Below are positions 33,886 through 41,390 of a DNA stretch of 64,000 bases, piece by piece. Position 1 is the first letter of the stretch, and every line of letters starts with the position of its first letter. The position numbers were made by a program, and so were the translations under genes. Source of the stretch: Urechis unicinctus. Lineage: Eukaryota; Annelida; Polychaeta; Xenopneusta; Urechidae. The notes beneath the pieces were generated by a model. That model did not search any database. It was not told where the DNA came from and was given only the letters and a program-made list of their open reading frames with translations. The DNA lies in NCBI GenBank assembly GCA_034190875.2, contig CM067354.1, positions 43,443,275 to 43,507,274 of the forward strand. Reading direction: 5' to 3'.

Positions 33886-34092
33886 TTCCATTAGTGACGG
33901 ACTGTGGTGTCCACCAAGCTCTTTAAATCAAGTGGAGCTTGCGCTCGATTTCACCTTCCGTTAGCGTCGTAAATTCTCAGCAGACATGAAAGACTCTAGG
34001 CAGGCTGGATTTTCACGCGCGAATCACTTACTAAAACACGCGCTATCGCAGCCCATTTTAAGAGACCTCTGCTCCGTCCGTTAGTGACGTCA
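33886..34092 (+). repeat. Three spaced CCRTTAGYG-type motifs
   Basis: CCATTAGTGACGG (33889), CCGTTAGCGTCG (33957) and CCGTTAGTGACGTCA (34078) recur within about 200 bases, each preceded by a pyrimidine-rich TTTCTCC, TTTCACCT or CTCCGT. The third contains TGACGTCA (34085-34092), a CRE palindrome. This may be an old tandem repeat or a promoter-like block. Confidence 0.35.
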
Positions 34093-34129
34093 ATCCTTAG
34101 ACTACATGTGGTGCGCCTGGGTGCTGCTC

Positions 34130-34300
34130 GATTTGTGATTGAGCCTCTGGTTACTTTAGCTACACTTGCTGCATCAACTCACATAGCTGTACCTACTATT
34201 TTCAAAGCCAACTCGTGTTCAGACGGCTCTTCTCAGAGCCACTTCCTCCTTTTGGAAGATGCTTATGTTGCTTTGCGATTCTGCTTTTTGCTCCAATAAT
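34130..34300 (+). repeat. Inverted partial copy of the DUF6589-like element's 3' end, with histone-type stem-loop
   Basis: The plus strand here parallels the minus strand downstream of the DUF6589-like stop codon. GAGCCTCT, GCTACA, then GCATC-ACTCACA and ACCT align with 35120-35050 minus. Two stem-loop positions follow, the first decayed (ATTTTCAAAGCC) and the second intact: GGCTCT-TCTC-AGAGCC at 34225-34240, preceded by ACGG and followed by AC. The gap between them is 15 nt, as in the minus-strand array. CCTCCTTTTGGAAGATG at 34245-34261 matches CCTCCTTTTAGAAGATG on the minus strand of 34691-34675. The copy is only the 3' tail. No coding sequence is recognisable upstream. Confidence 0.7.
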
Positions 34301-34674
34301 CCCAGCCTCTATGGCACATGTGATATTGAACAACCATTCAGACCTCCAAATCCATTTACCGACCCCCCCAATATCTAAAAATATACCGACCTTGCAATTT
34401 GAAGCCATACAATGCAGGGGTATGGGTTGGTATATGTGTACCCATGTAGACATCCGCAGTGAAGTTATTGCCTTTACACTACGTCATTTGTAAAACAAAT
34501 GTGCATAGGTCATAACATGACATTATTGAGGGATACTACTAGCTAGTAACCACTACTGGACACTTTCAGCATTGACAGGCTACATATTTTTTGCCAAATA
34601 CTAAATCAAATCGTAGGCTTGATAGAAACATAAATATAATAATAGACCCAAATAAAAAAGACAACAAGCAACAT

Positions 34675-34691
34675 CATCTTCTAAAAGGAGG
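34675..34691 (-). promoter_or_regulatory. Conserved block downstream of the stem-loop array
   Basis: CCTCCTTTTAGAAGATG on the minus strand lies just past the last stem-loop unit. It is shared, with one mismatch, by the inverted copy at 34245-34261, where it also follows the last stem-loop. In histone genes a purine-rich element that pairs with U7 snRNA lies downstream of the stem-loop. The GAAGATG part could play that role here, but it is not a match to the classic CAAGAAAGA and the idea is speculative. Confidence 0.35.
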
Positions 34692-34695
34692 GGAT

Positions 34696-35044
34696 GGCCC
34701 TGCAAAGAGTTGTGAGAAAACAAGGTGACTCTGAAAAGAGCCGTTTGAAGAGGGTGGCTCTTAAAGGAGCTGTGTGAAGACAAGGTGGCTCTGAAAAGAG
34801 CCGCTAGAAGAGGGTGGCTCTTAAAGGAGCTGTGTGAAGACAAGGTGGCTCTGAAAAGAGCCGCTAGAAGAGGGTGGCTCTTAAAGGAGCTGTGTGAAGA
34901 CAGGGTGGCTCCGAAAAGAGCCGTTTGTAGACAGGGTGGCTCTGAAAAGAGCCGCTAGAAGAGGGTGGCTCTTAAAGGAGCTGTGTGAAGACAGGGTGGC
35001 TCTGAAAAGAGCCGTGTGAAGACAAGGTGGCTCTGAAATGAGTC
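34696..35044 (-). repeat. Array of twelve histone-type 3' stem-loop units
   Basis: Twelve hairpin units start at 34696, 34727, 34756, 34787, 34816, 34847, 34876, 34907, 34938, 34967, 34998 and 35029, a spacing of 29-31 bases. Two types mostly alternate, so much of the array has a 60-bp period. Type A on the minus strand is GGCTCTTTTCAGAGCC. It is exact at 34787, 34847, 34938 and 34998, while the units at 34727 and 34907 keep a 6-bp stem through G-T pairs. It is normally embedded in CGGCTCTTTTCAGAGCCACC. This equals the stem-loop, loop and ACC flank of metazoan replication-dependent histone mRNAs. Type B, AGCTCCTTTAAGAGCC, keeps only a 4-bp core stem. The array begins within 100 nt of the stop codon of the DUF6589-like gene, on its sense strand. 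Confidence 0.92.
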
Positions 35045-35099
35045 GTTTAAAGAGGTGCCGCGGTGTGAGTCGATGCTGTACGATACGAGCATGTAGCAA

Positions 35100-35115
35100 G
35101 AGCCACTAGAGGCTC
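35100..35115 (-). promoter_or_regulatory. Extra hairpin between stop codon and stem-loop array
   Basis: GAGCC-ACTAGA-GGCTC on the plus strand is a 5-bp perfect stem with a 6-base loop. It starts 15 nt after the stop codon at 35133-35131. Its stem core (GAGCC/GGCTC) is the same as that of the array units, but the loop differs. It may be an outlying, rearranged unit. Confidence 0.5.
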
Positions 35116-35130
35116 AGATGGCTATAAACA

Positions 35131-37330
35131 CTAGAAGCTCTCAAAGACTTCCAGTTTCTGGTAATTGTCCATCTGAATGCTCAGCTCTTTCAGCCGTTCT
35201 TCAAGATGCGCAGGATCTGGAAGTTTTCCAGTTCCCCATGTGTGGTTGGGAAAGGTGGAGTGGCTGCGTGGTGGACAGTAATCAAATAGGTCATCATTGG
35301 TGTACTCTAGCAGGAAGCTGGCAATATCCTCACGGTACTTGGGCCGCCTTTCCTGTGCTGTGCTTCACCCACACACACCTGGACAAGCCTTTCCCGTTCA
35401 CGTTTAAAGGGCCCGATTATCTGGCTGCATCTTTGTACCTGAACGGGGCGTGTAGCGGGCGTGACAATGCTTGATCATGGCTGCACATTGACTAAGAGCA
35501 TAATGATCAGATTATGTGGGATTGAGTCTATTATCCCATTGCATTAATTGTCTTGGTTGTAATTAATGGAAATGAATTCATACTGTTATATCGGTGCCTC
35601 TCTTGAACACCTACCTTTGAATTCGTTGTTCAAAAATTCATTCATCTGATCCAGACCCATGCTGTTAACTGTACGTTTCCAGGTGATCTCGTGGGCCAAA
35701 GCAGGAGACCGAAACACGCCTGTATCTGCATTATCAACACCCTTAATTGACTACCCACTTCTTTAAGGACGCCAACAAGATTAATACTCATAAACAAAAT
35801 AGTCTGCACTAACAGGCCAGGAGTGTGTGGCTTATCCGCAGGTATCGTGGGTGGTTTAACTCCCAGAACTGCAGCATTCTAGGCGCCAGTACATCAGCAT
35901 TCGTTCCCCATCTCCTTCCCGCACTGCACTGCAACGTATGGCGAGGTTTAGTCCTGACCAGAGTAATGCCAGGTCGTGTTGTAAAACACCATCACCTTCT
36001 GCTCAGCCAGGCTGCATTGGTCACTGCCGAACCACTTTTCTGTAACATATCAACCATTCAAGCAGTCAGTGGTGCGATCCACAGTCCGAGTTTCAATTGG
36101 CTTATTTCCACTACCCAAACTTCAAAAATGAGTTACACCCACCAGGAAACACATCCACTCCGTCCTTGTCCAGGCAAAAAGGATGGTACCACTCATAGCA
36201 GTGGCAGCCTTCCTTCATAGCACATTGCACCATTCCAAAGTCAAGATACATCCGACTCTTGCAGGTAGAGTAGATGTAACCGTCGGCACTCTCGCAGGCC
36301 TCACTGCAATACCAGTACCAGCAGCAGTATACACTTGTATACACACGTCTGCCCCAACACACTACCTTCTGGTCATAGCCGGCTCTGATGTTGTCGACAT
36401 GGTTGCGTGCTGCATCCATACCCTGTGACACTCCCAGAAAATTCATGCTGCGGACAGTTTTATGGGATGCACTTTGCAACCAGAGGTCAACACTCATCAT
36501 GGCCTGCATGAAACTTTACCGCCGAGGATAACAAGCCGAGTGTTCCTCTTTTCGAGCGCCTCCACCTCAGTTAGAAATTTACACAGTCAAAGAAGAAGCA
36601 GACTTTGTTAATATTCACCGCAGCACCATGATCTGTCAGGGTTAAATCCGATGTAAGTGTAAGATAGGAATAGATAGGAAGGGAAATTATCAAGTTCATT
36701 CAATGATGGACAGCAGACTAAGTAGCAAAGAGAAACGGTATTTGCCTTCTTTCGTTATGCGGTCCTCTTGTAGTTTGCCGAGCCAGTACTTTAGTGGATG
36801 GCATTGCTACCTCCAGCACTTTGACAAGCAAAGGAAGTGTGGTGCTTAATTCCGCATGGATGTCATGCCACGAGAAAATGTCCGACCTCTCCTTTTAGAC
36901 AGGAGACCACAGGAATAAGATGGGACTGGTTCGATTGGTCCTGGCCTGTGCCATCTTGCTTCTTACCTTCTGGGCCACTAAAGTGTAAAGAGCACCCTTG
37001 GCAGCCGAAGAGTTCGACAGGAGGGTCCGAAAAGCATTGACATATTAACTCCCATCAATATACAACTTAGCCCGAAGGTGTTGTTTGTGTAGCTGTTGGA
37101 GCTGCAGAATGGCTTGGTGGCTCAGCAGTGGCTCCTGGTGATGAGCGCTTGGAAGGTGGTGGCTTTGTTAGGGTGCTGTCTGGGACCAACCTCTTGGGCC
37201 GCTTAGGGGTGTGCGTGGGTCATGTCCTCTTTATTGTGGACCGCCTCCAGACAGTACGGATGGTTAAGTCTTTGCGACAAGAGCCGCAAATCTTCTGCTT
37301 GGCTGGGCTGCTCAGACTAAGGAAAGGCTT
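35131..37330 (-). pseudogene. DUF6589-like protein gene with Cys-rich PHD-like insert, decayed
   Basis: Minus-strand blocks occur in the order expected for the DUF6589-like proteins common in invertebrate genomes, whose function is unknown. In order: a Cys motif KQKICGSCRKDL (about 37290), a Pro/Ser/Thr-rich linker with an in-frame TGA at 37220-37222, AAKGALYTLVAQK (about 36990), FSWHDIHAEL (about 36880), SHKTVRSMNFLGVSQGMD (about 36450), a Cys/His cluster with MVQCAMKEGCHCYEWYHPFC (about 36210) like half a PHD finger, REGDGERMLMYWR (35921), LAHEITWKRTVN and MNEFLNNEFK (about 35690-35620), and KYREDIASFLLEYTNDD then HSTFPNHTWG to the TAG at 35133-35131. Good splice signals suggest introns: donor AAG/GTAAGA about 36958, and an exon at 35725-35615 ending AAAG/GTAGGT. 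Frameshifts near 35900 and 35400 and the TGA show inactivation. A domesticated or transposon-borne origin cannot be told apart. Confidence 0.62.
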
Positions 37331-37592
37331 TCCGTGCTGTATATGGGGAGACTACAGTGAGCACCTTATACTTGATAAGTTGGCACAGCACGACATCTGT
37401 TACCAAGCAAATTCATAAATCAATGTAGAAAATCGTACTTCGCACATTTGGAAGTATCGAGCATCCGAACCCAGTAATCGTGGAGTAATAATTACAGGGT
37501 GTTTTTTACTAAGCAACATGCACACAAACGTAAAGTAAATAAAGCTACAACCATCATTATGTGAAATCAAAGTGCGGTATATTATTAATAAA

Positions 37593-37646: not shown

Positions 37647-39075
37647 CAATACTCTCTCTCTAACGATAAGAAATGTACAAAACCGAAATGGAAAAGAAAC
37701 GAAGTCCTAAATTTTATGCCTATGTCCTCGCCAGCATTTTCCATCTGTATTATGCAGTGGAATAAATGAGAGGAAAAGGCATCTCGCTGGTAAGTTGTTA
37801 GGTATACATTAAGTATAAATTGACTCACATGTGAAGTGTATCATCAGGCAGATGATGACAATACTGGTATGATAGCAAATTCTGCGCGGTCGCTTACGAT
37901 AACGACATGCAAGAGACTGGTTGTTGACACTGGAAATTGCAGGGAATTCCTCCCACTAGAATTCGGAGTGGAATTTCGCCGAAAAGCTAGGAATTAATCG
38001 AATATCAAGTGTTCTTCCGGATATTGGTTAAACAATACCTTTAGCATTTAAATTCAGTCAATACTCTCACCGTTGGTGGCTTTAAATTCTTCTCAGTACG
38101 TATTTTTTACGTGATTAGTGATGATAAGTTAAGCATGTTTGTCAATCTACCGATAAAGTGGGGTTTTCCCTGTTAGACCAACAACGGAGTAGCCGATCGA
38201 CTGTTGGCCTGTTGGGCTAGGTGTAATTACTTTCAACATCAAATTTTATCTCTGTCATAATTACAGTGCATTGTTGTACATGTGGCTGTAGTTAAACACA
38301 TTTTATGGTGCGTAGCGCCGGCTAACAAAGTGAACCGCCACAGTAGACATCTGTCCGACATCGAACAAATAATTATCCCGAGATTTATATGGAGGTTTAT
38401 ATGGATACTAATGAGTTATAAGTATTGCAGAGTAGAATAAATCATCCTTCCAACAATCAGTCATAAGTGTAGATTCTGCACGTCATTACAACCGTAATAT
38501 TTTGCATATTTCTGCGAAAAGGAAATATATGATGCAACTTTCCATTGGATACATCCCCCACTTTATCTAAGAGCAGGTGTCTGACATGACCTTTGATTAT
38601 TTCATTGGCATATCATCGTAACAAACTGCCACTTTCCACTGAACTCTCAATTGATCTTCACAGCGGTGCGCACTTCAGGATACCTATGGGCTCATAATAC
38701 AGGTCCTATTTATGAAAGTATCATATACCAAGCTTAAATTCTACCACGAAATTCATCACAGGCGCACATTACATGGCATGATGTTGGACTCATGTACCAT
38801 AAAGATCGGTGTGGGTATTCTGCTTAATACCCAACCAATATTGAGAAGCTCAACATGGCTTATTTTATGAAAACGTACATAAGTATGATGCCATAGGTAA
38901 TGAAGACAACGACAGCCTTGTGACAGGAAACATAACTATTCAGACAAAAGTAGATTCAATGTAGACAACGCCATATGGTATGGGCTTATTTGTAGCCAAA
39001 ACATAATCAACGTATATGTAACACAGCTTTCCTATCGCAAGGCTATCAGCCGAGCGCCGTACATTACAACCGAGC
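37646..39075. other. Non-coding stretch
   Basis: No gene, RNA or repeat recognised between the two microsatellites. Confidence 0.5.
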
Positions 39076-40800: not shown

Positions 40801-41390
40801 CGTCCTTCCTTCTCCCCAGTCTCTCTCTTCCTCCCGTCCTTCTCCCCAGTCTTTCTCTTCCTCCCATCCTTCTCCACAGTCTTTTTCTTCCTCCCGTCCT
40901 TCTCCCCAGTCTCTCACTTCCTTCCGTCCTTCTCCCCAGTCTCTCACTTCCTCCCGTCCTTCTTCCCAGTCTCACCCTTCCTCCCGTCCTTCTCCCCAGT
41001 CTCTTTCTTCCTCCCGTCCTTCTCTCCAGTCTCTCACTTCCTCCCGTCCTTCTCCCCAGTCTCTCCTTTCCTCCCGTCTTTCTCCCCAGTCTCTCAATTC
41101 CTCCCGTCCTTTTCTCCAGTCTCTCCTTTCCTCCCGTCCTTCTCCCAAGTATCTCCCTTCCCCCGTCTGTCTCCCCAGTCTTCTCCCTTCCTCCCGTCCT
41201 TCTCCCCAGTCTATCCCTTCCTCCCGTCCTTCTCCCCAGTCTCTCCCTTCCTCTCGTCCTTCTCCCAAGTCTCTCACTTACTCCCGTCCTTCTCCACAGT
41301 TTCTCCCTTCCTCTCAACCTTCTCTCCAGTCTCTCCTTTCCTCCCGTCCTTCTCTCCAGTCTCTCTCTTCATTCCGTCCTATTTCAATGA
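40801..41390. repeat. 30-bp pyrimidine-rich minisatellite, ~20 units
   Basis: Units close to CTTCTCCCCAGTCTCTC plus CTTCCTCCCGTC repeat at 30-base spacing for about 590 bases with point variants. One 29-base unit near 41160 shifts the phase. The plus strand is nearly all C and T. Because the unit is a multiple of three without stops, long frames are open on both strands (for example a 239-codon plus frame with Ser/Leu/Pro repeats). These are most simply explained by the repeat. Confidence 0.95.

Follow-up and report, generated by a model that had tools for sequence, protein, structure and literature searches.

Why should a gene that encodes no histone end in twelve copies of a signal that animals normally reserve for their histone genes? 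The question is raised by a locus of Urechis unicinctus, within a window of 64,000 nucleotides (the whole stretch of DNA that was analysed), in which an array of histone-type stem-loops follows a non-histone stop codon. The original prediction held that a transposon-like gene had captured histone-style 3' processing, and that the signal was then amplified. This reading is supported by the comparisons reported here, and largely holds at the level of sequence, with two additions: a second, convergent gene carries the same signal, and beyond the last stem-loop lies a downstream element resembling that of histone genes. The array is probably the 3' end of one gene of a two-gene DNA transposon, both genes of which would bear a captured histone 3' end that links their expression to S phase.

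The stem-loop array

The minus strand carries twelve histone-type stem-loop units at a spacing of 29-31 bp, as predicted, and TRF reports a period of 31 with 11.8 copies across 34695-35053. Eleven of the units match the 19-mer GGCTCTTTTCAGAGCCACC with at most four mismatches, and four of these are exact over the 16-mer GGCTCTTTTCAGAGCC, the number originally reported; the twelfth (34711-34696), read from the sequence, is decayed, with four mismatches in 16. The first unit, at 35044-35029, lies within 100 nt of the TAG stop codon, and neither AATAAA nor ATTAAA occurs on the minus strand from 35135 to 33600, so that the two further claims made for this strand also stand. The array is not a product of chance, since the 1.19 Gb genome contains 252 occurrences of the 16-mer and none of its reversed control, and the folding of 34690-35070 (z = -6.5) was equalled by none of 100 shuffles, in keeping with the hairpins first proposed.

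A dispersed two-gene DNA transposon

The window array marks the 3' end, now decayed, of a single copy of a DNA transposon dispersed through the genome. This transposon has defined ends, TSDs and two convergent genes, here called A and B. The element extends from TAGCCC (L047:5772; window 38219) to GAGCTA (L025:8244), and is approximately 8.5 kb long in the C3 copy. Of the four young copies inspected for their termini, those on C7 (2.61 Mb) and C15 (53.57 Mb) have exact 8-bp TSDs (CGTCAAAG and CATAGAAG, respectively), that on C12 showed the right end only, and that on C17 showed neither end; imperfect TSDs flank L025 (7 of 8 bases) and L024 (6 of 8). The features of the window copy are collected in Table 1.

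Table 1. Features of the transposon copy within the window, in window coordinates.
Feature	Position	Strand	Basis
Left terminus of element, TAGCCCAACAG..., terminal hairpin	38180..38219	minus	homology starts at the same base in L047, L024, L021, L026 and L027
Gene A remnant, including stop codon TAG (35133-35131)	35131..37373	minus	tblastn with pieces from copy L025
Array of 12 histone-type stem-loop units	34696..35044	minus	TRF, motif matching and sequence reading; the unit adjoining the downstream element (34711-34696) is decayed
Gene A downstream element, CCTTTTAGAAGATGATGTTGCTT	34666..34688	minus	sequence compared with other copies; 3 bases shorter in the window
Gene B single histone-type stem-loop, GGCTCTTCTCAGAGCCACT	34225..34243	plus	motif match; aligned with other copies
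Gene B downstream element	34250..34273	plus	identical to the 24-base query TTTTGGAAGATGCTTATGTTGCTT from other copies
Gene B (predicted RecQ-type helicase) C-terminal remnant	34077..34139	plus	tblastn, 62% over 21 aa, E 0.007

Gene A is represented in the window by the pieces 37373-37238, 36577-36354, 36314-36141, 35877-35815, 35708-35613 and 35523-35137, while the DUF6589 core exon and nearly all of gene B were unmatched in tblastn searches with the pieces from L025. The copy is called decayed because of these losses, the four mismatches in its last stem-loop and the three bases missing from its gene A downstream element. Hence the initial description of the gene as DUF6589-like applies to sister copies, in which the domain was found, but not to the window copy, which has lost the relevant exon. 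The window also contains a minisatellite at 40807-41380 (30 bp, 19 copies).

The DUF6589 domain (PF20231) of gene A is barely above the Pfam cut-off of 27, scoring 28.0 in L009 and 27.7 in L025, and a PHD finger was found in an L025 piece (E 1.1e-6); a search for protein relatives of gene A returned none at E 1e-5 among the 7988 candidates scored. The pieces of gene B have TIGR00614 as their best family (E 3.6e-16, 8.2e-8 and 4.2e-5, all under the whole-protein cut-off, being pieces) and match RecQ, WRN and RECQ1 in the PDB, such that its product is, as judged from these similarities, a RecQ-type helicase. Gene B has GT-AG introns, and the frames of gene A are broken in like manner.

Several other identities were considered for these sequences. 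That the inverted stem-loop pairs represent histone genes is unsupported, as tblastn of H2A, H2B, H3 and H4 against L009-L028 and the window detected no histone coding at E 1e-3, and the best value in the same search at E 10, including 10 kb of the window, was 0.13. Their interpretation as transposon TIRs was rejected, the pairs being the 3' ends of two convergent genes. Neither gene fits a replication-dependent histone gene, since no encoded histone was found in these searches and gene B has introns. Helitrons have a CTRR 3' end and no TSD; a Helitron, as the right-end hairpin and CTRR-like end might suggest, is rejected by the 8-bp TSD. No viral family exceeded the cut-off in a Pfam scan of 16 frames, and a stem-loop scan of viral contigs gave 0 matches. 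One L012 frame outside the element had a weak Herpes_Helicase match (E 0.0069, below cut-off), with a strong PIF1 match nearby. The PIF1-type helicase and endonuclease-like frames of that locus (L012:1010-3146) lie approximately 4 kb from an array, and presumably resemble a Helitron-type element.

Both genes end like the organism's own histone genes

Each gene of L024 and L025 has a single stem-loop at its end, followed by a ACCCCCTCCTTTT-like spacer and then GGAAGATGCTTATGTTGCTT. The tandem histone genes of the organism, at C15:65.6 Mb, close with one stem-loop, then a spacer, then CTAGAAGATGCTTA (H3) or close variants. Both element ends share with the organism's H3 the succession of stem-loop, spacer and GAAGATGCTTA, and the downstream elements of the transposon and the histone genes, a feature expected 10-20 nt past the stem-loop, have a GAAGAT-CTTA core in common. 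The element ends also conform to the histone-type consensus of a 6-bp stem, a 4-nt loop and an ACC flank.

This similarity is reflected in the scores of the Rfam model RF00032. Single-loop gene A ends scored 34.2 (L048), 33.9 (L050) and 33.9 (L060) bits, and the array copy L059 scored 31.1 bits, meaning the gathering score of 34 was reached by one of the four; the gene B ends of L048, L050, L060 and L059 scored 31.1, 31.1, 28.3 and 30.6 bits. The organism's own core histones scored 34.1 (H3), 32.0 (H2B), 27.2 (H2A) and 27.0 (H4) bits. In the window, there was no match at the gathering score, with six units at 22-25 bits each, which fits both decay and a strict model, as H3 alone of the organism's four core histone ends reaches 34. 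Hence it is the intact copies that the covariance model scores like histone genes of the same genome, whereas the window units themselves fall short.

Across the 45 nt 3' of the stem-loop, alignment of the element to the ends of the four core histones gave z 5.4-8.4 relative to shuffles, with H3 no better than H4, while across the 10 nt 5' of the stem-loop, five element ends matched H3 at 8-9 of 10 positions, and H4, H2A and H2B at 2-6 of 10. The captured end may perhaps have come from an H3 gene, a suggestion resting on approximately 10 nt, since the sequence beyond the stem-loop resembles H4 and H3 equally. The search for a U7 snRNA gave a best Rfam match of E 1.17, with no gene identified, and neither pattern search exceeded its control (2 matches against 11, and 20 against 21). 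The tandem histone repeat itself (L029-L045 and L068, mostly at C15:65.63-65.68 Mb) has a period of approximately 5 kb, and its H2A stem-loop is a compensated variant, GGCACTTTTAAGTGCC.

Conservation and amplification among copies

Three sets of loci were sampled: 20 drawn from the list of stem-loop matches, each 9-10 kb long, 20 short ones drawn from the list of downstream elements, and the termini of the four young copies. At the 20 short loci, nearly all taken as convergent pairs, a stem-loop (at most four mismatches in 19) preceded the downstream element at all 20 gene A ends and at 18 of the 20 gene B ends (38 of 40 in total), or 14 of 14 and 12 of 14 without the six loci already present in the stem-loop or array lists; these counts are not independent, as the copies share ancestry and their selection was itself based on the stem-loop or the downstream element. 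Gene A had one stem-loop at 12 of these loci and 3-11 at the other 8, whereas each of the 18 gene B ends had one. Across copies, amplified gene A ends range from 2 to 12 stem-loops, and young copies have one per gene. The presence of single-loop copies at the same place indicates the array is secondary, agreeing with the suggestion that the signal was amplified after its acquisition.

Among the 100 downstream elements listed of 105 matches, all 30 pairs less than 600 bp apart were convergent, at separations of 220-221, 302 or 418-477 bp. A query of the array plus the gene's last codons had at least 43 genomic matches (40 of 91 candidates scored). After setting aside five in tandem blocks, 18 of the 38 array matches had, within 120 bp, a same-strand downstream element with no more than one mismatch among the same 100 of 105; of the remaining matches, L010 and L012 are interrupted by N, and L014, L018 and L020 continue into other sequence. 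The old copy L027 has kept both stem-loops, and its downstream elements are degraded.

The units of an array are not equally conserved. Among the 17 arrays of three or more units that also have a gene A downstream element, 13 have an exact unit adjoining that element, against 38 of 109 upstream units (permutation p 0.015, a guide only, as the copies are related), and six-pair stems were formed by 14 of 17 adjoining and 64 of 109 upstream units. Excluding the decayed window copy, these fractions of exact units were 13 of 16 and 34 of 98 (p 0.0004). The difference was present under both ways of choosing loci: where the stem-loop alone was used, 6 of 8 adjoining units were exact against 22 of 61 upstream (p 0.023), and where the downstream element was used, 7 of 8 against 12 of 37 (p 0.009). 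Four array copies, including the window, have an altered unit beside the downstream element, with one mismatch each in L011 and L067. Fifteen copies had fewer than three units; L010, L012, L014, L018, L020, L022, L023 and L027 were left out for want of a usable gene A downstream element, and L028 did not enter the comparison. This last locus (C4:20426000-20435999) consists of tandem units of approximately 1.75 kb, each a piece of the element's 3' region with its own stem-loop array.

Two other sites stand out in the genome-wide distribution. About 20 stem-loop sites are clustered between approximately 0.5 and 15.5 Mb on C1, within the first quarter of the contig, and the sites read are for the most part 91-96% alike over their main aligned blocks, several with an opposite-strand gag-like frame, as judged by eye. 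Perhaps the longest array is at C17:10177173-10178115, where overlapping matches span approximately 900 bp, or roughly 28 units, ending in a downstream element.

Poly(A) signals and related families

On the gene A strand, neither AATAAA nor ATTAAA was found near the end in any of the 15 copies examined, in a scan anchored where the sequence past the downstream element begins and extending from 110 nt before that point to 412-500 nt beyond it. The gene B strand has AATAAA 184-440 nt past the downstream element in 14 of 15 copies, and ATTAAA at 82-84 nt in two. This does not exclude histone-type processing, because histone genes of C. elegans also have an AATAAA, placed right after the downstream site (PMC1924863).

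A genome search with a helicase piece gave 150 matches, and the 80 reaching the C-terminus were tallied, omitting three tandem copies of one at C7:30.78 Mb. With the 100 downstream elements (at most one mismatch) listed of 105, one lay within 250 bp of the helicase end in 23 of 27 matches at 84% identity or above, 1 of 2 at 71-83%, 3 of 13 at 57-70% (all three with stop codons) and none of 38 at 52% or below. Eight relatives (28-70% identity) contained neither a stem-loop nor a downstream element in the 141 bases past the helicase end; five of them, representing two families (L080-L082; L083 and L087), have AATAAA overlapping or directly before the helicase stop codon, and the other three have none within those 141 bases. 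Two DUF6589 gene ends from one other family similarly lack the stem-loop, and have AATAAA approximately 380-390 nt past the stop codon; a third stretch stops short of the gene end. None of the 70 listed DUF6589 matches was within 10 kb of a listed downstream element, the list being of the best-scoring matches, and thus of other families.

As the more distant families lack the stem-loop, some having AATAAA instead, the histone-type end appears from these comparisons to be a trait of one clade, rather than of DUF6589 genes generally. Hence the expectation that other copies of the gene would share the signal was correct for copies of the same element, but not for distant DUF6589 families. Many DUF6589 matches across the genome are a few kb from a convergent match to a RecQ-type helicase, with the helicases 28-100% alike to the query. 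Such DUF6589-RecQ pairs seem to constitute a large superfamily, in which only one clade has histone ends.

Alternative explanations

Transposons pick up host fragments, and a histone 3' end could have been captured by accident, then carried inertly by descent alone. The drift of the upstream array units is consistent with such a history, as is the degradation of the downstream element in both L027 and the window. Yet the signal immediately follows both stop codons, a position occupied by AATAAA in two sister families, and the unit beside the downstream element drifts less than the others; hence we regard inert capture as unlikely.

It is far less probable that the repeats are DNA-level binding sites for the transposase, with only a secondary likeness to histone stem-loops. 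Although transposases often bind short palindromes arrayed near the ends of a transposon, these stem-loops are mid-element, at distances from the L025 termini of approximately 3.3 kb and 4.9 kb, and 12 of the 20 short loci have a single gene A unit; neither the downstream element nor the H3-like flank is explained by such a role. The tandem block of element 3' ends at C4:20.43 Mb might suggest that the array is satellite DNA with no connection to the gene, but this block is derived, 37 of the at least 43 array matches start at query base 1, in the gene's last codons, and gene A homology continues upstream of them. Many arrays also end in the same downstream element, and single-unit copies occupy the same place, making a satellite origin scarcely credible.

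Discussion

From the observed anatomy, homology, conservation and restriction to one clade, we infer that the histone-type ends are processed, timed to S phase and of benefit to the element. Capture of a histone gene's 3' end (stem-loop and downstream element, perhaps of H3) would have provided the ends of both convergent genes. SLBP would then bind the stem-loop, and the U7 snRNP the downstream element, with the transcript cut between the two and left without a poly(A) tail. Element mRNAs would consequently accumulate only in S phase, when replication would give a transposon its best chance of gaining copies. In some lineages, tandem duplication would have amplified the gene A stem-loop, with the unit beside the downstream element changing least; as the spacers between units have no downstream element, only the last unit could be a processing site. 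On balance, we lean towards the fuller proposal that in this lineage a captured histone (possibly H3) 3' end replaced the poly(A) signals of both genes, placing a transposase and a helicase on the S-phase histone mRNA programme as spliced, non-polyadenylated mRNAs, with SLBP sites amplified in some lineages.

The element ends share the 16-nt stem-loop, ACC flank, spacer and downstream element of replication-dependent histone mRNAs (RF00032, SLBP/U7 snRNP), and, in the copies examined, the absence of a nearby poly(A) signal on the gene A strand. Unlike those of histone genes, they are found on non-histone, intron-bearing transposon genes, and gene A often has 2-12 stem-loops. Histone pre-mRNA processing is described as requiring two elements, between which the cut is made, and such pre-mRNAs as lacking introns (PMC5636114), hence spliced transcripts with a histone-type end would be unusual.

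Among transposons, the element also combines familiar and divergent features. Kolobok elements insert at TTAA, whereas the TSD of this element is 8 bp of varied sequence, and the only Pfam assignment of gene A is DUF6589, besides the PHD finger in an L025 piece. A RecQ helicase within a DNA transposon, as seen here, is nevertheless described for KolobokH and Kolobok-1_CCri, in one of them on the complementary strand (PMC9587614, in part). The nearest published type known to us is AcademH (Kojima 2020), comprising DNA transposons with a DEAD/Helicase_C helicase from animals and fungi (PMC10799480, PMC10045372, in part). By description, AcademH is likewise a DNA transposon with a helicase, but its reported TSD is 9-10 bp (PMC10045372) rather than 8 bp, and histone-type ends are not mentioned in the portions of its published descriptions covered (PMC10799480, PMC10045372). 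Histone stem-loops on transposon genes were unreported in the literature searched, including parts of PMC2781718 and PMC8857922, and nothing was found on DUF6589, although few subscription papers were covered, leaving absence from the literature unproven.

If the signals work, a mobile element ties the expression of both its genes to DNA replication through one borrowed RNA-processing module. Transposition timed to S phase would then have a direct mechanism at the level of sequence, genes with introns and histone 3' ends would be known to occur naturally, and the arrays would serve as a natural experiment on the effect of several SLBP sites in a row. The coexistence of the stem-loop clade and its AATAAA-bearing relatives in one genome makes the switch testable. 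The downstream-element sequence that would pair with U7 is GAAGAUGCUUA.
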